NCBI RefSeq assembly: GCF_000225825.1
Contig: NZ_AGBX01000001.1
Coordinates: 1,240,001-1,304,000 of the forward strand
DNA length: 64,000 bases
Reading direction: 5' to 3'
DNA from: Brachybacterium squillarum M-6-3
Lineage (GTDB): Bacteria; Actinomycetota; Actinomycetes; Actinomycetales; Dermabacteraceae
Shown here: piece by piece, positions 9,607 to 63,436 of the stretch
How positions within the stretch are numbered: the stretch's first letter is position 1
How the letters are laid out: each line of letters begins with the position of its first letter
Program-made: the position numbers and the translations under genes
The notes under the pieces: model-generated
Told to the model about the DNA's origin: nothing
What the model saw: only the letters and a program-made list of their open reading frames with translations
Database searches by the model: none

Positions 9607-12600
9607 CGGGCACTTCCAGGCCGGGGATCGTGCCGGCGCGCGCCTCCGCGGTGACTGCCGCGGCTGACGGGGGCAGAGCCGACCGGTCGCCTCGTGTCAT
9701 CGGGGCGGGCCGCGGCTCCGCGTCATCGGCGTGCGGCTCGACCTGGTGCAGATGCACCTCGACCACCTCACCGCGCAGGGGCAGGTGGACCAGCACCCGG
9801 TCGGGGCGCTGCCCGGCGGCCGCGAGGGCGTCGGCGTAGGTGGCGAGCTGGCCCAGGTGGTGCTCGCGCACGTGCGCGGCCGGGTCCTCGCCGGGGTAGG
9901 TCTTGTGGTCCACCAGCACGGTCGAGCCGTCCGGCCGGCGCAGCAGCGCGTCGATCCAGCCCTCCATCGTCTGACCGTCCTCGTTCCACCAGGCGATGGG
10001 CTGCTCGGTGACCTGCTCGGCACCGGGCAGCTCGGCGGCGAGGAACCCCATCCACGCCTCACCCGCGCGCAGCAGCGCCTGGGGCCCGACGGCGCGGCGC
10101 ACGGCCCAGCGGTCCACCAGGCGCTCCGCGGCGCGCTGCCGCAGCGCCGGGGTGAGCTCGGCCAGCGGCAGTGCGAGGTAGGCGTGCACGGCCTCGCCGA
10201 CCCGGTCCCAGCCCTTCCCGCCTCCGCTGACCAGGGCCGGGCCGATCGTCCGGGGTTCCGCGACGGTGCCGAGCTCGGCGGCGGAGGCGACACCGGAGGC
10301 CTGCATCCGCGCCCCGGGCCCGGCGGCGACCTCGGGGCGCGGACCGGTGAGGTCGCTGGCCACCAGGGCACTGCGCCCGGCCGCATACCGGGGCCGCGCG
10401 GTGTCGTCCGGATCAGCGGGATCGGTGGGCAGCCCGCGGGAGCGGACGGGCAGCGCCGTCCCGCCCGCGAGGTGCAGCAGGTCCTCCCCGGGGGACCAGC
10501 GCAGCAGCGGCTCCTCGCCCCCGACCAGGGCGTCGAGCACGGGGGCCGTGCCGTCGCCGCTGAGCACGGTGACGTCCCGGGCGCGGGTGAGGGCCACGTA
10601 CTGCAGACGGCCGGACTCCTCGCGCTCCTGCCGGGAGCGGCGCTCGGCGTGCGTCGTGGCGGCGAGGGCCTCCTGCACCGGCGGGAAGCCGCCCAGCACC
10701 GCGGGCCAGTAGCGCAGGGAGCGCCCGGCCAGCGGATCCAGCACGTCGAGCTGCGGGGCGGGCACAACCATCACCCCGCTGGTGTGCGCGCGGTCCTTCA
10801 CGGCGGACTCCAGCATCACCACCACGCGGGACCACTCCAGGCCCTTCGCGCCGTGCACGGTGCCGACCCAGACGGTGTCCGGCAGGCCGTCGAGCTCGGG
10901 CCCGCGGTCGGTGGCGTCCAGCGCGGCCCGCAGGCCCGGCAGGGTGACGGGCGCACCGGCGGAGCGGGTCTGCTCGGTGTACTCCGCGGCCAGGGCGCGC
11001 AGCGCGTCCAGGGTGCGCAGCCGCTGCTCCGGCACCGACCAGCCGCGGATCCGCTCGGGCAGGTCCAGGGCGTCGATCAGGGCGGTGATCATCTCCCCAG
11101 GCGTCAGCAGCACCGCGGCCGCCCGCAGCGCGTGCAGGCCGCGCAGCGTGGCGTCCTGCCACCAGTCTGTGAAGACCTGCTGCCGGGCGACGGCGTCGGG
11201 CGCGGCGGCGAGCTGCGCGAACCAGCCGACGTGCGCGGCATGGTCGGGCAGCAGGTCCACCAGTTCGGTGAGGGCGAGGGTGTCGGAGAGATCGAGGGTG
11301 ACGGCCAGGGCCGCCCGCACCAGACGCCCCTCGCGGGAGTCCAGCAGGCCGATGCCCTGCCCGGAGGCGGGGACGCCGCGGGCCGCGAGCGCCTCGGCCA
11401 CCCGACGGGCCTGCGCGTTCGAGCGCACCAGCACCGCCACGTCGGCCGGGTCGGAGCCGTCCTCGGCGAGCAGGGCGGCCACCCCCTCGGCCAGGGCCTC
11501 CGCGTGGGCGCCCTGGGAACGGCGCCCGCTGTACTGGGGGGTCCAGACCTCCACCCGGCCCGGGGCGCGGCCCGCCGCGGCGCGACGGGCGACGGCACCG
11601 GGGGCCGCCTCCAGCACCACCTGCTCGCGCGGCAGTTCGGGGAAGACGGCGGGGAACACGGCGCCGACCAGGTCGAGCACCGGCTCCTGGGAGCGCCAGG
11701 ACTCCCGCAGGTCCTCGGCGACGGCCTCGCCGAGGGCGGTGCCGCCGCCCGTGACCAGGTCGAGGATGCCCCGCATCAGCTCGGGATCCGCCTCGCGGAA
11801 GCCGTAGATGGCCTGCTTCGGGTCGCCCACCCAGATCAGGTCCTCGACCAGGCCGGCGAGCTCGAGGAACAGGGCGAGCTGGACGGGGGAGGTGTCCTGG
11901 AACTCGTCGACCGCCAGCAGCCGCACCCGGGCGGCGATCACCTCCCGCACCCGCGGACGCTCGCGCAGCAGCCGCAGGGCCAGGACCTCCTGGTCGATGA
12001 AATCCATCAGGCCCAGCTCGTCCTTGTAGCGGGCGTAGGCGTCCAGGGAGTCGGCGGCCGTGTCCATCACCAGGGTGATCAGGCCCCGCACGTCGTCCTG
12101 CAGGACGGGGTTCGCGGCCAGCTCCGCCTCGACCATCCGGGAGGTGCCCAGCAGGATCTCGTCCACACCCTTGGAGTAGGCGTACTTCCCACCGGCCTCG
12201 GGGTCCCCGGCCTTGCCGCGGGCGACCCGCGTCAGCTTCGCCCAGCCGGACCAGGGGGCACGAGCCGGGTCGGCGAGGTCGCGGCGGAGCTGCTCGAGGC
12301 CGCCGAGGTGCCGCTCCAGGGTCGAGGCGCCCGTGCCGCCCTGGGCGATCCCGGCGCGCAGGGCGTCCAGGGCGGTGTCGAACAGGGACAGCCAGGCGCC
12401 GCGCCGGTCCTCGCCGGGGGCGGGCAGGGCGGCCGTGCGGTACTCCTCCCAGGCCGCCGCGGCGGACTCGCGCAGCGTGACGGGGGAGAGGTCGTTGGTG
12501 CGGGCCTTCTCGGCGAGCTGCCGCACCGGGGTGCGCCAGGAGGCGGTGGCGAGGTAGGGCAGCGCCGGGTCCTCCTCGCCGTCGTGCTCGGTGCGGGCCA

Positions 12601-46701: not shown

Positions 46702-46737
46702 GGAGGGCCCCGGACCGTGAACGGTCCGGGGCCCTCC
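46702..46737. terminator. Bidirectional hairpin terminator, 17-bp perfect stem
   Basis: Arms 46702-46718 and 46721-46737 pair fully (GGAGGGCCCCGGACCGT on the left) around a 2-nt gap. It lies between the DoxX-like gene and the convergent oxidoreductase gene and can serve both. There is no U-tract. Confidence 0.88.
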
Positions 46738-47740: not shown

Positions 47741-49252
47741 TCACGCGCAGCGGGTGGCGGCGAGCTCCCCCGCCACCACGGTCGCCAGCGGCCGCACCGC
47801 TCGCAGCCGTGCCGCGGCCTCCCGTGCCGCCTGCTCGAGCATCAGCCCGTCCGCCCCGCACGGCACGGGGGCGAAGACGTCCTCCTCCAGCAGCACCACG
47901 TCCGCCTGGCCGCCCACCCGCAGCGCGGGCACGCCGTCGGTGGAGGCGGCGAGCGCCTCGGCCGGCTGCAGCTGCTGGGCCGGGAACCAGGCCTCGCGGG
48001 CGTCGGCGCTACGGTGCACGGCCGCGGCCATCGCCAGCCACGGGTCGACGGGGGCGACGGGGGAGTCGGAGCCCATCAGCAGCGCCACCCCCGCGTCCTG
48101 CAGGTCCCGCAGGCGGTACGACTCGGCGGCGTGCTCCGGCCACACCTCCTCGGTGGGGTCGCGGTCGTCCAGCAGGTGCGCCGGCTGCACGGAGGCGCGC
48201 ATCCCGAGCGCCGCCATCCGTGCCACGTCCTCGTCGGCCAGCAGCTGCGCATGCTCGATCCGACCCGCCGACCCGTGGGCGGCGAAGGCGTCCAGCACCA
48301 CCCCCACCGCCGCGTCGCCGATGGCGTGCACCGCCGCCCCGAGCCCGCGTTCGGCGGCTCGCGACAGCAGTGCGACCAGGTCCTCCGCCACTTCGGAGAG
48401 CACCCCGTAGCCGCCGCCGAGCGGATGCGCATCGGGCTGGCCGGAAAAGGCGTAGGGGTGGCGGCAGTAGGCCGAGCGGGAGCCCAGGGAGCCGTCGGCG
48501 ATCACCTTCAGCGGTCCCATCGTGACCAGGCCGTCCGAGCCGAGCGGGGTGCCGCTCGGGCCGGGCACGGCCTCCAGGCCGGAGGCGTAGGTCGCGGTGC
48601 GCACCCGCATCCGCGCCTCGCGCCCCTGCCAGAGCCGCCAGTTCGTCGCCCACTCCATGTCGGTCAGGCCCACCACGCCGCGGGCCAGGGCGTCCTGCTG
48701 CATCCGGGTGACGCCGGCCTCGAGGTCGCGGCTGACGCCCGGCAGGTCGTCCAGATGGGCGACCGCGTCGAACCACTCGTCCTCGGCGACGATGCCGCGC
48801 CGCGGCGCGAGGCCCAGCCCGGCCAGGGCCGCCGAGTTCATCCAGGCGTGGTGCGCGTCCCCGCCGATCAGCACGACAGGGCGGCGCTCGCCGGTGACGG
48901 CGTCCAGGGCCGCGACGGTCGGCTCCCCGGCCATGTCCACCAGGCGGTGGCCGAAGCCGACCAGCGCGTCCGGGCCGTCCCCGCGCTGCTGCAGGGCCGC
49001 GTGGAGGTGGCGCAGCATCTCGTCCACCGAGGCGATGCCGGCGGTGTCCAGCCGGGCATACCCCTGGGCGGTCTGGCCCACGTGCACGTGGTGGTCCCAC
49101 AGCCCCGGGATCGCGAGCGCCCCGCCCGCCTCGTGCACGGCCTCGCCGGCGTGGGCGGGCAGGCCGGGGCCGATCTCCGCGATTACGCCGTCGCGCAGGC
49201 GCAGGGAGGTGACGGCGGAGGAGCCGGGCAGGGTGACGTCTCGCAGCAGCAC
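47741..49252 (-). CDS. Metal-dependent amidohydrolase, YtcJ-like
   Basis: This 503-residue enzyme has the amidohydrolase-3 layout: PGLWDHHVHVGQ (metal-binding HxH), GGDAHHAWMNSAALAGLGL, MGPLKVIADGSLGSRSA, AVHAIGDAAVGVVLDAF, RIEHAQLLADED and LMGSDSPVAPVDPW (final Asp ligand). Family members hydrolyse amides or esters of diverse small molecules; the substrate is unknown. GTG 49252 is 6 nt after TAGGCT. Confidence 0.88.
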   Translation of the reverse strand: MLLRDVTLPGSSAVTSLRLRDGVIAEIGPGLPAHAGEAVHEAGGALAIPGLWDHHVHVGQTAQGYARLDTAGIASVDEMLRHLHAALQQRGDGPDALVGFGHRLVDMAGEPTVAALDAVTGERRPVVLIGGDAHHAWMNSAALAGLGLAPRRGIVAEDEWFDAVAHLDDLPGVSRDLEAGVTRMQQDALARGVVGLTDMEWATNWRLWQGREARMRVRTATYASGLEAVPGPSGTPLGSDGLVTMGPLKVIADGSLGSRSAYCRHPYAFSGQPDAHPLGGGYGVLSEVAEDLVALLSRAAERGLGAAVHAIGDAAVGVVLDAFAAHGSAGRIEHAQLLADEDVARMAALGMRASVQPAHLLDDRDPTEEVWPEHAAESYRLRDLQDAGVALLMGSDSPVAPVDPWLAMAAAVHRSADAREAWFPAQQLQPAEALAASTDGVPALRVGGQADVVLLEEDVFAPVPCGADGLMLEQAAREAAARLRAVRPLATVVAGELAATRCA

Positions 49253-49258
49253 CCGCCG

Positions 49259-49264
49259 AGCCTA
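49259..49264 (-). promoter_or_regulatory. -10 box, leaderless type (amidohydrolase)
   Basis: Minus strand TAGGCT, 6 nt before GTG 49252. Confidence 0.55.
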
Positions 49265-49281
49265 TCCAGCCCCGCCCCGTA

Positions 49282-49351
49282 CACAGACCTGGCTGTGGTG
49301 GTAGGCAACGTGCACATATGCAGGCTGCCTACCACCACAGCCAGGTCTGTG
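49282..49351. repeat. 26-bp perfect inverted repeat between divergent genes
   Basis: Arms 49282-49307 and 49326-49351 are fully complementary, with CACAGACCTGGCTGTGG at the outer left. The 18-nt loop contains TGCA-CATA-TGCA. It begins 18 bp upstream of the amidohydrolase -10 box and lies 107 bp before the ABC gene, where no transcript ends, so it is not a plain terminator. Confidence 0.9.
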
Positions 49352-49383
49352 CACGGTCCCTCTCCCCTCCGTGCTCCCGGAGC

Positions 49384-49399
49384 CATGACAGCTGTCATG
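49384..49399. promoter_or_regulatory. 16-bp perfect palindrome, candidate operator
   Basis: CATGACAGCTGTCATG lies about 60 bp upstream of the ABC ATPase start. Palindromes of this type are bound by LuxR/NarL-type response regulators controlling ABC transporters; the one at 52600 is the obvious candidate. Confidence 0.55.
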
Positions 49400-49457
49400 A
49401 CGCCTCCGTGACGACGCCCCCTGGGGGCACCACCCGGCCGCGCCGCAGGCTGGAGCC

Positions 49458-50381
49458 ATGAACACCACCGGCCCCGCCACCCCCGCCATCGAGATCCGCG
49501 ACCTGGTCAAGTCCTTCGGCGAGCTGACGGCCGTCGACCACCTCGACCTTTCCGTCCCCCGCGGCCAGATGCTCGCCCTGCTCGGCCCCAACGGCGCCGG
49601 CAAGTCCACCACCACCGAGATGATCCTCGGCATCACCGCCCCCAGCTCCGGCAGCGTGCAGGTCGCCGGGATGAGCCCCGCCAAGGCCGCCCAGCAGGGA
49701 CTGGTGGGGGCGATGCTGCAGAACGGCGCCCTCCTGGAGGACGTCCCCGTGCGGTCCATGCTCTCCCTGGTCGCCGGCGTCTGCGCGCACCCGCTGCCCC
49801 TGGACGACGTGATCGAGCGCGCCGACATCGCCCCGCTGCTGCGCCGCAACACCTCCAAGCTCTCCGGCGGCGAGGCCCAGCGGGTGCGCTTCGCCCTCGC
49901 CCTGCTGCCCGACCCCGAGGTGATGCTGCTGGACGAGCCCACCGTCGCGATGGACGTCGAGACCCGCCGCCGCTTCTGGGAGCGCATGCGGGCCGTCGCC
50001 GCCGAGGGCCGCACCATCGTCTTCGCCACCCACTACCTCGAGGAGGCCGACCAGCAGGCCGCCCGCGTCGTGGTCATGGACCGCGGCCGGGTGGTCGCCG
50101 ACGGCACCGGCGCCGAGATCAAGTCCCGCATCGGCGGCCGTGCCATCACCCTCGTCCCCCTCGACGGACCCGAGACGGTGGACGACCTGGCCCGCCTGGC
50201 CGGCGTCACCTCGGTGGACCTCCTCGAGGACGGCCGGCTGCACCTCTCCTCCCGGGACTCCGACGCCACCCTCGCGGCGCTGTTCGCCCCCGGCGGGCCG
50301 GGCGCCGAGGGCAGGGTCCGCGACCTCGCGGTCTCCCAGCCCAGCCTCGAAGAGGCCTTCGTCCAGCTCACAAGCCACTGA
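49458..50381 (+). CDS. ABC transporter ATP-binding protein (DrrA-like)
   Basis: This 307-residue ATPase has Walker A GPNGAGKST (near residue 42), the signature LSGGEAQRV (near 136), Walker B VMLLDEPTVAMD and the H-loop FATHYLEEAD. The C-terminal extension of about 85 residues is usual in DrrA/CcmA-type export ATPases. It pairs with the permease 33 bp downstream; the module probably exports a lipophilic compound or antibiotic. Confidence 0.95.
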   Translation: MNTTGPATPAIEIRDLVKSFGELTAVDHLDLSVPRGQMLALLGPNGAGKSTTTEMILGITAPSSGSVQVAGMSPAKAAQQGLVGAMLQNGALLEDVPVRSMLSLVAGVCAHPLPLDDVIERADIAPLLRRNTSKLSGGEAQRVRFALALLPDPEVMLLDEPTVAMDVETRRRFWERMRAVAAEGRTIVFATHYLEEADQQAARVVVMDRGRVVADGTGAEIKSRIGGRAITLVPLDGPETVDDLARLAGVTSVDLLEDGRLHLSSRDSDATLAALFAPGGPGAEGRVRDLAVSQPSLEEAFVQLTSH

Positions 50382-59012: not shown

Positions 59013-60920
59013 GTGTCCTCCCTCCTCCGGATCATCCGTTTCACCCGCTCCCTGAACCCCCTGTACCTCGCGATCGTCGTCTGCTCCGTGCTGACGGCAC
59101 TGGCGGGCCTCGCGGTGCCGTTCATCATCGGCCGCGCCACCGACGTGGTGACCTCCGCCGTCAACGGCGAGATGAGCGCGGGCGACGCCGTCCGCGCCGT
59201 GATCCTGCTGGCCCTGGTGCTGCTGGCGGTGGAGCTGGTGAACACGGTGGTCTCCAACGTCGGCGGCTGGTTCGGCGACGTGATGAGCAACCGGCTGCGC
59301 ACCATCCTCTCGGTGCGCTACTACGACAAGCTGCTGCACCTCCCGCAGCGCTGGTTCGATGCCGAGCTGACCGGCACCATCGTGGCGCGGCTGAACCGCT
59401 CCATCGCCGAGATCTCGATGTTCGCCAAGACCATGTCGAACAGCTTCGCCACCATGCTGATCACGACGGTCGCGGTGCTGGGCATCTCCGCCTACTACTA
59501 CTGGCCGCTCGCGGTGCTGCTGCTCATCGTCTTCCCGGTCTACGTCTGGCTGACCTCGCTGACCTCGGTGAAGTGGCAGAAGCTGGAGGGCGAGAAGAAC
59601 GAGCAGGTCGACATCGCCTCCGGTCGCTTCGCCGAGGTCATCGGCCAGATCCGGGTCGTGAAGTCCTTCGTGCGGGAGCGTTCCGAGCTGAGCGACTTCT
59701 CCCGCCGCTTCTGGTCCACCGACGCCACCACCCGCGCCCAGTCCACCCACTGGCACCGCATGGACGTGCTGCGTCGCGCCGCCCTGAACCTCGTGTTCTT
59801 CGGGGTCTACGCGATCATCTTCGTGCGCACCGTGCAGGGCGCCTTCACGCTCGGCGAGATGGTGCTGCTGATCCAGCTGATGTCGATGGCGCGCCAGCCG
59901 GTGCAGTCCATGAGCTGGGTCGTCGACTCCTCGCAGCGCGCGATCGCCGGCTCCAAGGACTACTTCCGGGTGATGGAGACCCCCATCGACGAGCGCACCG
60001 CCGCGATGCTCGCCGCCCGGGTGGGGGTGCGCGACACGGCCGGCGCCGACGCACGCTCCGGGGCGGCCGACGGCGACGAGCCCGGCACCCGGACCGGCGG
60101 TCTGACGACGCTTTCGGAGCATCCCGACGAGGCGGCGCTGCACCCGGTCGCGGGAGCCCCCGTGGTCGCCTTCCGGCACGTCGACTTCGCCTACGAGGGC
60201 GATGCCGACGTGCTGCACGACATCGACTTCGCCGTGGCCCGCGGCGAGAAGGTCGCCCTGGTGGGGGAGTCCGGAGGCGGCAAGTCGACCATCGTGAACC
60301 TGCTGCTCGGGCTGTACGAGCCGCGCGAGGGTGCGGTCGAGGTGGTGGGCCACGACAGCGCCGACCTGCCGCTGGACGTGCTGCGCTCCCGCATCGGTGT
60401 GGTCTTCCAGGACGCCTCGCTGTTCTCCGGCACCATCGCCGAGAACATCGCCTACGGCCGACCCGGCGCCGGCGAGGAGGAGATCGAGGCCGCCGCACGC
60501 CGCGCCAACGCCGACACCTTCATCCGTCGCTTCCCCGCCGGCTACGAGCAGATCATCGGCGAGCGGGGCCTCAAGCTCTCCGGCGGCCAGCGGCAGCGCA
60601 TCGCCGTGGCCCGCGCGATCCTCAAGGACGCCCCGCTGCTGGTGCTCGACGAGGCCACCTCGGCGCTGGACACGAAGGCCGAGCGGCAGGTGCAGAAGGG
60701 CCTGGACGAGCTGATGGAGGGCCGCACCTCCCTGATCATCGCCCACCGCCTCTCCACCATCGCGGCGGTGGACCGCATCATCACCCTGGACGAGGGCCGC
60801 ATCGACGAGATCGGCTCCCCGGCCGAGCTCGCGACCACCGGCGGCATCTACGCCCAGCTGCTGGCGCTGCAGGACTCCGGCCAGACCAAGCGCCTGGCCA
60901 AGTACGGCATCACCGGCTGA
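59013..60920 (+). CDS. ABC exporter, fused permease-ATPase (MsbA/MDR-like)
   Basis: This 635-residue half-transporter has six N-terminal helices (to about residue 310), a linker with a Gly/Asp-rich insertion (about 345-375), then the ATPase with Walker A GESGGGKST, the signature LSGGQRQRI and Walker B LLVLDEATSALD. It should form a homodimer exporting lipids or drugs. No partner gene is adjacent, fitting a homodimer. Confidence 0.94.
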   Translation: MSSLLRIIRFTRSLNPLYLAIVVCSVLTALAGLAVPFIIGRATDVVTSAVNGEMSAGDAVRAVILLALVLLAVELVNTVVSNVGGWFGDVMSNRLRTILSVRYYDKLLHLPQRWFDAELTGTIVARLNRSIAEISMFAKTMSNSFATMLITTVAVLGISAYYYWPLAVLLLIVFPVYVWLTSLTSVKWQKLEGEKNEQVDIASGRFAEVIGQIRVVKSFVRERSELSDFSRRFWSTDATTRAQSTHWHRMDVLRRAALNLVFFGVYAIIFVRTVQGAFTLGEMVLLIQLMSMARQPVQSMSWVVDSSQRAIAGSKDYFRVMETPIDERTAAMLAARVGVRDTAGADARSGAADGDEPGTRTGGLTTLSEHPDEAALHPVAGAPVVAFRHVDFAYEGDADVLHDIDFAVARGEKVALVGESGGGKSTIVNLLLGLYEPREGAVEVVGHDSADLPLDVLRSRIGVVFQDASLFSGTIAENIAYGRPGAGEEEIEAAARRANADTFIRRFPAGYEQIIGERGLKLSGGQRQRIAVARAILKDAPLLVLDEATSALDTKAERQVQKGLDELMEGRTSLIIAHRLSTIAAVDRIITLDEGRIDEIGSPAELATTGGIYAQLLALQDSGQTKRLAKYGITG

Positions 60921-60929
60921 GCCCGGCGC

Positions 60930-60947
60930 CGGGGCGGCCCTGCCCCG
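60930..60947 (+). terminator. Short hairpin after ABC exporter
   Basis: CGGGGC and GCCCCG pair around a 6-nt loop, 10 bp after the stop codon. Confidence 0.4.
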
Positions 60948-60979
60948 CGCGAGTCGACGCCGCACGCCGGTCACGTCGG

Positions 60980-61065
60980 GGCCTGTCCATCGGATGGACT
61001 CAGGTGACAGGTCGCGTGGATATGACAGGCGACCTGTCGCTCAGGTGCATCGGATGGACAGGGCC
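60980..61065. repeat. Inverted repeat element upstream of methyltransferase
   Basis: Arms 60980-61014 and 61030-61065 share about 27 of 34 positions as an inverted pair; each has an inner dyad of type GTCCATCGGATGGAC. The right arm ends about 19 bp before the ATG at 61084 and overlaps the promoter region. It is related in sequence to the element at 61993-62069. Confidence 0.8.
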
Positions 61066-61083
61066 TCGCGGCACCATGGGGCC

Positions 61084-62013
61084 ATGAGCACCTGGACCGG
61101 CGCCGCCGAGGCCTATCGCCGCTCCTTCGCGACCCTCTGCGCCGGCACGATCGACACCCTGCTGGACGCGACCGTGCCAGCGGATTCCCTGCTCGACGTG
61201 GGCTGCGGGACCGGCGAGCTCGCCCGCGCCGCCGCCCAGCGCGGCCTCGCCGTGACCGCCGTGGACGCGGATGAGGACATGGTGGAGGCGACCCGAGTCG
61301 CGCTGGGTCGTCGCGACGATCCGCCATCGCGGTCGGAGCCGCTCGCACCCGCGCCGTCCCCCTCCGCGCAGCTCTCCACCGAGTCGGCTCGGAAGACAGG
61401 GACGGCACCGAGGTCGGACGAACGGCCCGGGCGACCTGACACCGGGTCGACCGCCGCGGTGCTCCACGCTGCCGCGCCCACCCTGCCGATCGCCGACCGG
61501 TCAGCCTCCGCGGTCACGGCGAACTTCCTGGTCAACCACGTGCCCGACCCTCACGCCACCACGGCCGACCTGGCGCGGGTGCTCGCCCCCGGCGGCCGTC
61601 TCGCGATGACCATCTGGCCGGCGGAGCCCGGGCCGCACCTCCGCGCAGTCCAGGCCGCCGCGCACGAGGTGGGCGCCGTGGCCCCTCCGTCCACCCGGCT
61701 CTCTCTCGAGCGGGACTTCCGCCGCAGTCCCGAGGGCCTCGCGAGGCTCGCCGAGCAGGCGGGACTCCAGGTGCTTCGCGCCGAGGAGGTCACCTGGACC
61801 TGGCGCACCACCGCGGAGGACATCCTGGCGGGCATCCGCGCCAGGATCGCCGGGCCGGGGCGGCTGTACCTCGCCCAGCCCCCGGATCGTCGCGCCGAGC
61901 TCGACCGGGCCACCCGCGCCCACTGGCAGGCACACGCTGAGGGCGGAGGCCTCGCCTTCCCCGTCACCGTGGTGCTGGTGCTCGCAACGATCTGTCCACA
62001 GGATGGAGTCTGA
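61084..62013 (+). CDS. Class I SAM-dependent methyltransferase
   Basis: This 309-residue enzyme has the SAM site LLDVGCGTGELARAAAQRG (motif I, near residue 40), VTAVDADEDMVEAT (motif II), a NHVPDP segment and RVLAPGGRLAMTIWP (motif IV). A disordered insertion of about 45 residues, rich in Pro, Ser and Arg, falls between motif II and the next strand (near residues 78-122). The acceptor is unknown. The last codons and TGA stop lie inside the right-hand repeat element. CACCAT lies 6 nt before the ATG. Confidence 0.85.
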   Translation: MSTWTGAAEAYRRSFATLCAGTIDTLLDATVPADSLLDVGCGTGELARAAAQRGLAVTAVDADEDMVEATRVALGRRDDPPSRSEPLAPAPSPSAQLSTESARKTGTAPRSDERPGRPDTGSTAAVLHAAAPTLPIADRSASAVTANFLVNHVPDPHATTADLARVLAPGGRLAMTIWPAEPGPHLRAVQAAAHEVGAVAPPSTRLSLERDFRRSPEGLARLAEQAGLQVLRAEEVTWTWRTTAEDILAGIRARIAGPGRLYLAQPPDRRAELDRATRAHWQAHAEGGGLAFPVTVVLVLATICPQDGV

Positions 62014-62069
62014 GCGACAGCGCCCTCGATATACGGAGGCACTGTCTCCTGTGCTCCATTCCGTGGACA
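61993..62069. repeat. Inverted repeat element downstream of methyltransferase
   Basis: Arms 61993-62024 and 62038-62069 match at about 23 of 32 positions around a 13-nt spacer. The left arm shares CTGAGCGACAG with the complement of the upstream element's right arm (61034-61044) and a CTGTCCAnnGGATGGAnTC core with its left arm. It contains the methyltransferase stop codon. Confidence 0.75.
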
Positions 62070-62194
62070 CGACTCCCTCGCACCGGCCGCCCAGCCGCCG
62101 TCCCGGCCGGGTCCACCCGCCTCCCGGTCCGCGTCCAGGGCTCGCGGCTACGATGATGGGCGTCACATGGGGGACGGACACGAAGGAGACACCG

Positions 62195-63436
62195 ATGGGC
62201 TTCATCCAGGCATTCAAGGGCGCGATCGGCGGCATGTTCGCCGACCAGTGGCAGGACTTCCTGACCATCCCGAACGGCCTGCCGCAGACCGCCGCGCTGT
62301 TCCCGGCCGTGCCGCGCGGCACCAACGCCGGCCGCGGCTCGAACACCCGCGGCAGCGAGAACGTCATCACCAACGGCTCGCGCATCCTGGTGCCGCAGGG
62401 CTACGGCCTGATCACCGTGGTCGACGGTCGTGCGACCGGCCTGATCACCGAGGCCGGCGGCTACGAGTTCAACGACCAGTCCCCGGATTCCCGCTCGGTG
62501 TTCGCCAGCGACGGCATCCTCGCCTCGACGGTCGGCATGTCCTGGGAGCGCTTCAAGTTCGGCGGCCGCCCCACCTCGCAGCAGCTCGCCTTCTACGTGA
62601 GCCTCAAGGAGATCCCCGACAACCGCTTCGGCACCCAGTCGGAGATCTACTGGGACGACGCCTACCTGAACACGCAGGTCGGAGCCATCTGTCGCGGCTC
62701 GTACACGATGCGGATCATCGACCCGCTGCTGTTCGTGCACAACTTCGTGCCGGCCTCGTTCATCTCGCAGAACGCCCCGGTGTTCGACTTCTCCGACCCC
62801 GACAATGCGGCCGGCAACCAGCTGTTCCGCGAGGTCGTCGGCTCGCTCGCGCAGGCCTTCTCGCGCTACACGAACGACCCCGACAAGGGCAATCGCATCA
62901 CCCGCATCCAGGGCGACTCGGTGGGCTTCGCGCAGTCCCTCTCCGCCGCGGTGGAGGAGGGCTACCGCTGGTCGACGGATCGCGGCCTGACCATCGTGAA
63001 GACGGCCATCGCCTCGATCGAGTACGACCAGCGCACCCGCGAGCTGCTGGCCGACGTGCAGAAGGCCGACGCCCTCTCCGGCAACCGCTCGCAGTCCTTC
63101 CTGAACCAGGCGGCGGCGCGCGGCGTGCAGGCGGCGGGGGAGACCGGCGGCGGCGCAGGCCTGGCCATGTTCGGCATGGGTGCCAACGCCGCCGGTGGCC
63201 TGGTGAACCCGGTGCAGCCGTATCAGCAGCCCCCGGGCACGGCCGCTCAGCAGGGCCAGCCGCAGCAGGCCGCCCCGCAGCAGGGGCAGGGCCAGCCCCA
63301 GCAGGCAGCGACCCAGCAGGCCGCCGCGCAGGAGGATCCGGTCGCAAAGCTCGCGCAGTACAAGCAGATGCTCGACCAGGGCCTGATCAGCGCGGAGGAC
63401 TACGAGGCGGCCAAGAAGAACGCCCTCGGGCTCTGA
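62195..63436 (+). CDS. SPFH-domain/virion-core-like protein (YdjI type)
   Basis: ATG 62195 follows GAAGGAGA. The 413-residue protein has an SPFH-type core of the YdjI/virion-core group (GSRILVPQGYGLITVVDGRATGLITEAGGYEFN), a helical part, and a Gln/Ala-rich linker before a short C-terminal segment with KLAQYKQMLDQGLISAEDYEAAK, the SHOCT-type motif. YdjI of Bacillus works with a membrane-repair or dynamin-like system; a similar membrane or secretion role is possible but unproven. It probably shares an mRNA with the next gene, 6 bp on. Confidence 0.85.
   Translation: MGFIQAFKGAIGGMFADQWQDFLTIPNGLPQTAALFPAVPRGTNAGRGSNTRGSENVITNGSRILVPQGYGLITVVDGRATGLITEAGGYEFNDQSPDSRSVFASDGILASTVGMSWERFKFGGRPTSQQLAFYVSLKEIPDNRFGTQSEIYWDDAYLNTQVGAICRGSYTMRIIDPLLFVHNFVPASFISQNAPVFDFSDPDNAAGNQLFREVVGSLAQAFSRYTNDPDKGNRITRIQGDSVGFAQSLSAAVEEGYRWSTDRGLTIVKTAIASIEYDQRTRELLADVQKADALSGNRSQSFLNQAAARGVQAAGETGGGAGLAMFGMGANAAGGLVNPVQPYQQPPGTAAQQGQPQQAAPQQGQGQPQQAATQQAAAQEDPVAKLAQYKQMLDQGLISAEDYEAAKKNALGL

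Follow-up and report, generated by a model that had tools for sequence, protein, structure and literature searches.

The two imperfect hairpins that flank a methyltransferase gene in Brachybacterium squillarum are best read, with moderate confidence, as copies of a non-autonomous, intergenic, DNA-level palindromic element tied to a trans-acting nuclease that would spread it. Both lie in the window, by which we mean the whole 64,000-nt stretch of DNA that was analysed; coordinates without a contig prefix refer to it. Palindromes of this kind, which form subfamilies A, B and C, occupy at least 42 places in the 3.19-Mb genome (8 contigs), and two A copies (C8:883414 and 884477) enclose an AbiEi-like/REase_MTES_1575 (DUF559/Vsr-like) nuclease gene at C8:883506-884354. 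This gene is ca. 417 kb from the methyltransferase hairpins, and the window holds no homologue of it.

The initial annotation had placed one hairpin at the promoter and one at the 3' end of the methyltransferase gene, and both are present. The upstream element (subfamily A, 79 nt, 60983-61061; 83.8 bits with covariance model R1) starts 62 nt past an ABC gene and lies 22 nt before the methyltransferase start, with 28 of 39 positions complementary. The downstream element (subfamily B, 79 nt, 61992-62070; 81.8 bits with model R2) has 25 of 39 positions complementary and starts within the final codons of the gene. When folded as single-stranded DNA and compared with 200 shuffles, hairpin A gave z scores of -9.4 (+) and -5.3 (-) and hairpin B scores of -2.7 and -3.9; the two hairpins are real and non-random. 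Covariance models and a palindrome scan of the window revealed a third element (subfamily C, 80 nt, 49277-49356), which is the cleanest palindrome in the window (36 of 40 positions complementary) and lies between a divergent amidohydrolase-like gene (-) and ABC transporter gene (+), both named by eye. The second-best palindrome of that scan, a nearly perfect, GC-rich 36-nt sequence at 46702-46737, is probably a terminator-like hairpin outside the A/B/C family.

That the arms share a core and thus stem from one ancestral sequence was only partly upheld. Shared cores are seen: CTGTCCAnnGGATGGAnTC, read from the sequence, is common to the left arms of A and B, and within the window TGTCCAnnGGATGGA has perfect matches at these two hairpins alone, its 19 matches at up to three mismatches being at chance level (15.5 expected). 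Similarly, CTGAGCGACAG is found mismatch-free in the window only at 61034-61044 (-) and 62010-62020 (+); it is typical for subfamily B but an odd variant in the window's A copy, the A consensus being CTCAGGTGGCAG. The A and B consensus sequences are 54% identical and represent two subfamilies, so the four arms do not simply copy a single sequence.

The further suggestion of a repeat family of this genome was borne out by a genome-wide search. Thirty-nine places were found by blastn and covariance searches and three more among the listed matches of a general model, R3, which makes 42 a lower bound; the covariance models were built from B. squillarum's own copies and favour full-length matches, so broken copies may have been missed. 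Length is nearly constant among the 42 copies (79 nt in 35, 80 nt in six, of which five belong to subfamily C, and 78 nt in one), with identity within subfamilies of only ca. 70%. Besides the window copy, subfamily C is found at C2:350722, C8:817982, C8:1066728 and C8:474575 (covariance models). Relative to their consensus, 18 A copies carry 271 substitutions and 16 B copies carry 272, in a count that omits L056 and L067 (other length), L156 and the C copies; only two A/B copies have a length other than 79 nt. When 47 copies drawn from five genomes were aligned (37 of B. squillarum and 10 of relatives, L056 and L067 omitted for length), 84.9% of cells were paired, as against 67.5% in shuffles, and 286 two-sided, compensatory changes were counted, as against 118.5 in shuffles (0 of 500 shuffles as high). 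Sliding the partners by one to three columns lowers pairing to 30-42%, a comparison inflated by deriving the structure from the same sequences. The weakest stem pairs are 8 (26% paired) and 10 (33%), and the ends of A and B read CTGTCCA...TGGACAG, with TGT...ACA outermost.

Copies also cluster. Seven gaps between neighbouring copies are shorter than 1.3 kb, as against 0.73 expected and a maximum of four in 2000 random draws, with the provisos that the draws spanned the whole genome rather than intergenic space and that two of the seven gaps are halves of one local duplication. On C3, two A-B tandems, in each of which ca. 12 nt separate A from B, lie 2 kb from one another (8233, 8323, 10207 and 10296; L037, G000:C3:5000-13000), and local duplication is the probable origin of this repetition. 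A and B are also neighbours at C8:1152980/1153104; such tandems and pairs resemble the mosaic clusters of REPs.

Because close pairs of copies, ca. 1 kb apart, flank its gene, the nuclease came to attention as the candidate driver of the family. Six close pairs were read for what lies between them: the nuclease family is present in the B. squillarum A pair and in genomes G018 and G003, and tblastn shows the same in the G022 pair; two other B. squillarum pairs (C6:118848/119497 and C3:331753/332848) bracket unrelated genes or tRNAs. The latter pair, a B copy and an A copy, encloses a six-tRNA cluster with its Val and Gly genes inverted (L066:1659-2498). tblastn of the fetched loci added a family member in G012, likewise between paired palindromes, and a paralogue that neighbours the C copy at C8:817982. 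It also found the nuclease gene in G020, which is negative with the sequence models but where a model-free scan showed the gene to adjoin a 79-nt palindrome. No nuclease gene dedicated to subfamily B was found in these searches; B has the same ends as A, whose protein may serve both.

Pfam analysis of the B. squillarum nuclease showed C-terminal REase_MTES_1575 and DUF559 domains and a weak N-terminal AbiEi_4 match. MTES_1575 (PF18741) scored 37.5 bits, just below the Pfam cut-off of 38.2, DUF559 scored above its own cut-off, and AbiEi_4, the antitoxin domain that type IV AbiE toxin-antitoxin systems pair with an AbiEii partner, scored below its own; PADLOC AbiEi models are likewise weak in this protein and reach an E value of 2e-8 in L312. 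Among 29 family members, MTES_1575 is matched at E<=0.01 in all 29, DUF559 in 22 and AbiEi_4 in eight. Invariant residues include E181, D208, H225, D234 and R237, and E218, D220, R235 and D238 are nearly invariant. Profile matches in the PDB were to 3hrl, endonuclease-like (8e-6), and 3r3p, a mobile intron protein (6e-4). As judged from sequence, the family thus carries an MTES_1575 domain with active-site-like residues. Because all 38 genus genomes contain MTES_1575 matches, many of these within long proteins, presence or absence of the domain is unusable as a test; strong matches lie inside frames of ca. 1,500-1,800 aa in many of these genomes (e.g., L240-L266). The small nuclease proteins gave only weak matches to Hhe anti-phage models, and viral contigs contained no relatives of the nuclease. 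Homologues at E<=1e-20 are encoded in 103 of 396 genomes of the order, from 27 of 110 genera. Just upstream of another MTES_1575-matching gene of B. squillarum lies a 68-nt palindrome of unrelated sequence (L272:774-841, G000:C4), possibly a fourth palindrome type.

To avoid circularity, the association of gene and palindrome was assessed at 30 loci picked by protein similarity alone; each is the top match of its genome, and 20 of the 30 genomes belong to the genus of the window. Palindromes of at least 60 nt were sought within 700 nt on each side of the gene, with 170 ordinary genes of 230-420 aa from 800 kb of four genus genomes as controls; the test locus L309 reaches the end of its contig, and the limit used for its gene is approximate. 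A palindrome lies beside the gene at 21 of the 30 nuclease loci, as opposed to 18 of the 170 controls, and palindromes lie on both sides at 12 of 30 and 1 of 170, respectively. Positive loci comprise 16 of the 20 in the genus and five of the 10 outside it. At scores of 21 or more the counts are 11 of 30 and 3 of 170, and two of those three controls are members of the G058 family. The control is, if anything, conservative, because one nuclease gene (L209) falls within its stretches; the test loci are related by descent, not independent, and all 170 controls come from one genus. Left and right palindromes of the same locus are 82-99% identical in 12 loci, and identity between loci averages 0.56 with a maximum of 0.94, some loci being from sister species. 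The threshold misses some elements, since that of L300 has a 97% match in L299, which was scored negative.

Twenty further loci outside the genus, hand-chosen for spread from the list of protein homologues (18 from other families, two from another genus of the same family), have no control set of their own; 11 carry a palindrome and six carry one on both sides, with left-right identity of 76-95% in five of these and 66% in the sixth. One or two of the single palindromes in this set resemble repeats within genes. Scan-negative loci number 9 of 30 and 9 of 20, or 18 of 50, and overall a few one-sided palindromes resemble coding sequence or simple repeats (e.g., L335). Another set of 20 loci, picked by PF18741, overlaps the 30 and was left out of the case-control counts; 12 of its members contain, at some point in their stretch, a palindrome of 60 nt or longer. 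Four of the 20 (L278, L281, L284 and L286) show no match to the nuclease queries, and L278 alone of the four has a palindrome. The nuclease gene is associated with palindromes in several families of the order.

Protein and palindrome also co-diverge. In Mantel tests that included every locus with a palindrome and a readable protein, no row being dropped by choice, protein identity and palindrome identity were correlated with r = 0.38 over 20 loci (3 of 5000 permutations as high) and r = 0.33 over 15 genus loci (1 of 5000). Runs without L309, L310 and L311, which were left out of one or both sets by choice, gave r values of 0.455 and 0.43; the all-row run is preferred. The protein evolves fast in the one pair measured: the B. 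squillarum and G018 nucleases are 56-57% identical, the neighbouring genes 79% and 95%. The A-linked gene of B. squillarum has both neighbourhoods in common with the G018 gene and one in common with the G012 gene. A palindrome beside the G058 gene is of the same type as a dispersed one located in that genome without a model (88-92% identity across 64-72 nt) and has a 21-nt core in common with another. G058 also holds a second long-palindrome type, with two copies 2 kb apart (L198:9564-9637 and 11652-11739), which by eye is similar to a palindrome beside the G004 nuclease gene (L301:1116-1191).

Palindromes in other species have been censused in part only. Model R1 found matches in five of 58 relatives, all of the same genus, and R3 found them in 16 of 38 genus genomes at E<=1e-4. 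Such sequence models undercount, because G058 and G020, both R3-negative, carry palindromes of different sequence. A phylum-wide scan with R3 was positive in 1 of 396 genomes, at a low sensitivity that yields only 11 strand matches in B. squillarum itself.

We infer that the protein binds and cuts these palindromes and brings about their spread. Palindrome types go with a small nuclease gene, acting in trans, that has one or two of the copies at its own sides. The nuclease would most probably recognise the hairpin in extruded or single-stranded form, through its conserved ends (in A and B, CTGTCCA...TGGACAG) and through the zone of poor pairing around positions 8-11. Cutting of the hairpin would then lead to its copying or movement into other intergenic sites, so that the nuclease would be what mobilises the palindromes. 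PD-(D/E)XK nucleases alone do not join strands, and insertion would need host repair; as speculation, a nuclease of this type may insert the element by cut-induced repair or by template switching at the hairpin. Strain-level insertions, excision intermediates and target duplications, which would be direct signs of movement, were not seen.

The arrangement recalls REPINs and their RAYT transposases, which are thought to copy or move them. Among bacterial sequence populations that depend on a link to a single domesticated transposase, this pairing has been described best. Compensatory change and a length constraint are described for REPINs in the available text of PMC3116915. As far as the available parts of PMC3116915 and PMC2817692 go, the likenesses extend to short intergenic palindromes with these two properties, a gene flanked by two copies, an orthologous gene that stays in place while its flanking palindromes change, a protein that evolves faster than its neighbours, and several types per genome. 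Flanking of the gene by two repeat copies, in particular, is found around C8:883506-884354 and at 12 of the 30 loci, with an enzyme of a different family. Membership in REPIN/RAYT was nonetheless rejected, since the defining enzyme, an IS200/IS605-related Y1 HUH tyrosine transposase, is absent: PF01797 has no match in the B. squillarum genome, as compared with matches in 5 of 14 control genomes. The linked gene is instead a PD-(D/E)XK/Vsr-like nuclease, the palindrome is a single near-perfect hairpin of ca. 70-90 nt, and the palindrome flanks examined by eye share no GTAG-type head. We propose a nuclease-driven analogue. Retron msDNA repeats were also rejected, RVT_1 (PF00078) being matched in none of seven genomes and in 3 of 14 control genomes.

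In its available part, PMC3733652 describes repeats without a dedicated transposase, as well as TIR-flanked tyrosine enzymes (TIRYT/TIRtrons), and names no nuclease tied to palindromes other than tyrosine enzymes. TIRtrons resemble the present case in that a gene is flanked by long inverted repeats able to form a genomic family (PMC3733652, in the same part); they differ in that theirs are HUH tyrosine enzymes, of which B. squillarum has none. A second comparison is with Vsr-like homing endonucleases. The mobile intron protein 3r3p is presumably an EDxHD homing endonuclease, and the likeness consists of the weak nuclease-domain profile similarity (E 6e-4) and of mobility by DNA cutting; however, no intron or homing target is seen here, and the palindromes lie in trans.

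The broader reading is evenly poised: that palindromes of near-fixed length are dispersed through actinobacterial genomes by a PD-(D/E)XK/Vsr-like nuclease whose AbiEi-type part binds DNA, in a second, independently evolved REPIN/RAYT-like lifestyle with no HUH or DDE transposase, and that each such gene has its own co-diverging palindrome type. If a nuclease of another fold does support the same arrangement, the lifestyle of a trans-acting enzyme with dispersed palindromes would be convergent, and a widespread orphan family of actinobacterial genes (REase_MTES_1575, DUF559 or AbiEi-like) would gain a testable substrate, its own flanking palindrome. Among the matches listed in openly licensed PubMed Central, with preprints outside the scope, no paper links MTES_1575, DUF559 or Vsr with dispersed palindromes. 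The term 'palindrome-associated transposases' was not found in the openly licensed PubMed Central literature.

The location of the copies bears on what else they might be. According to a crude gene caller, all 42 lie between genes, three of them overlapping a gene end by 8-22 nt, and the gaps are co-directional in 22 cases, convergent in 11, divergent in eight and of undetermined orientation in one; 13 of the 22 co-directional copies are closer to the 3' end of the upstream gene than to the next start. This spread disfavours the proposal, made in the initial annotation, that the hairpins are sites for one regulator, though the AbiEi-like nuclease probably binds them. A wider form of that idea, in which the palindromes serve the AbiEi-like or another protein as operators or architectural sites, selected as a regulon or nucleoid mark, with nothing moving and the nuclease domain secondary, is the rival that fares best, although we consider it unlikely. 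An N-terminal part of AbiEi type, seen in eight of 29 members at E<=0.01, is consistent with it, as is the near-fixed length, which fits a protein site, and gene-adjacent copies could be autoregulatory. However, 11 of 42 copies sit in convergent gaps and most co-directional ones nearer an upstream 3' end, symmetry over the full 79 nt despite a changing inner sequence does not resemble an operator, an orthologous gene has different palindromes in different species, and junctions without the element exist at the methyltransferase locus.

Ordinary MITEs, that is, terminal repeats of a DDE insertion sequence moved by its transposase, would also be non-autonomous, dispersed, intergenic inverted repeats, and the TGT...ACA ends would suit them. 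We regard this explanation as improbable, because the palindromes are linked to a gene for a nuclease from a different family, with no DDE transposase link found, and no target duplication was detected around the 42 B. squillarum copies, or around 63 copies when relatives were included, at offsets of -3 to 4 and lengths of 2-10; the best z was 2.8 among 72 tests per set, and old duplications may have decayed.

Somewhat less probable still is that the elements act as RNA hairpins, whether terminators, mRNA stabilisers or small RNAs. Their strong folding, the 11 convergent gaps and the position of 13 of the 22 co-directional copies closer to a 3' end speak for such hairpins, but eight of 42 copies lie between diverging genes. 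The mismatch classes are symmetric (A-C 64, G-T 64), and for co-directional copies the counts on the strand that is transcribed (G-T 46, A-C 40) reveal no clear G-U preference; this symmetry points to constraint or templating on DNA, not RNA. Rfam returned no match up to an E value of 1 for window positions 60900-62200 and, for 49000-49600, only microRNA models far under their cut-offs, which any hairpin may attract; a gathering-level scan of 12 loci found a tRNA cluster only.

The class I methyltransferase gene itself (61084-62013, +; Pfam Methyltransf_23/11) is a bystander. We compared the interval between the ABC transporter and an SPFH-like gene (named by eye) in 34 genus genomes, L148-L151 holding one of the two genes. 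Homologues of the methyltransferase in named genomes comprise three distant loci only. The gene is found in the same interval in 8 of the 34 loci (L118, L119, L120, L121, L122, L129, L139 and L144), some with extra DNA on one side, and in these eight relatives neither R1 nor R2 gives a match better than E 0.9 (an R2 match in L129, at E 0.97, is at chance level), nor does a model-free scan detect a palindrome of at least 60 nt. The sole clear A/B match among the 34 loci is L148 (G012), in whose fetched stretch no methyltransferase was found; L126 gives a weak match. In G013 and G015, the short gap between ABC and methyltransferase genes aligns with the B. squillarum sequence on both sides of A and lacks A and ca. 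50 nt more. At the other end, element B supplies the stop codon (62011-62013) and the last seven codons, so that the protein ends in ICPQDGV in B. squillarum, as against RP and stop in seven of the eight relatives and RD in the eighth. Because the gene stands in place without the elements, A-less junctions exist and the gene end derives from B, A and B came, or were lost, independently and did not carry the gene. The remaining idea, that A and B are the ends of a mobile methyltransferase cassette, suggested by their flanking positions and by the seven close copy gaps (<1.3 kb, 0.73 expected), is very improbable given that the gene is conserved in place in those eight relatives, an outcome that the initial annotation had itself named as refuting, the A-less junction in two of them, the replacement of the gene end by B and the assignment of A and B to different subfamilies. 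The methyltransferase seemingly contains an extra low-complexity stretch of ca. 58 residues (61285-61460): the tblastn match in L119 is split at residues 67/126, and the protein is 309 aa long here compared with 259-293 aa in relatives.
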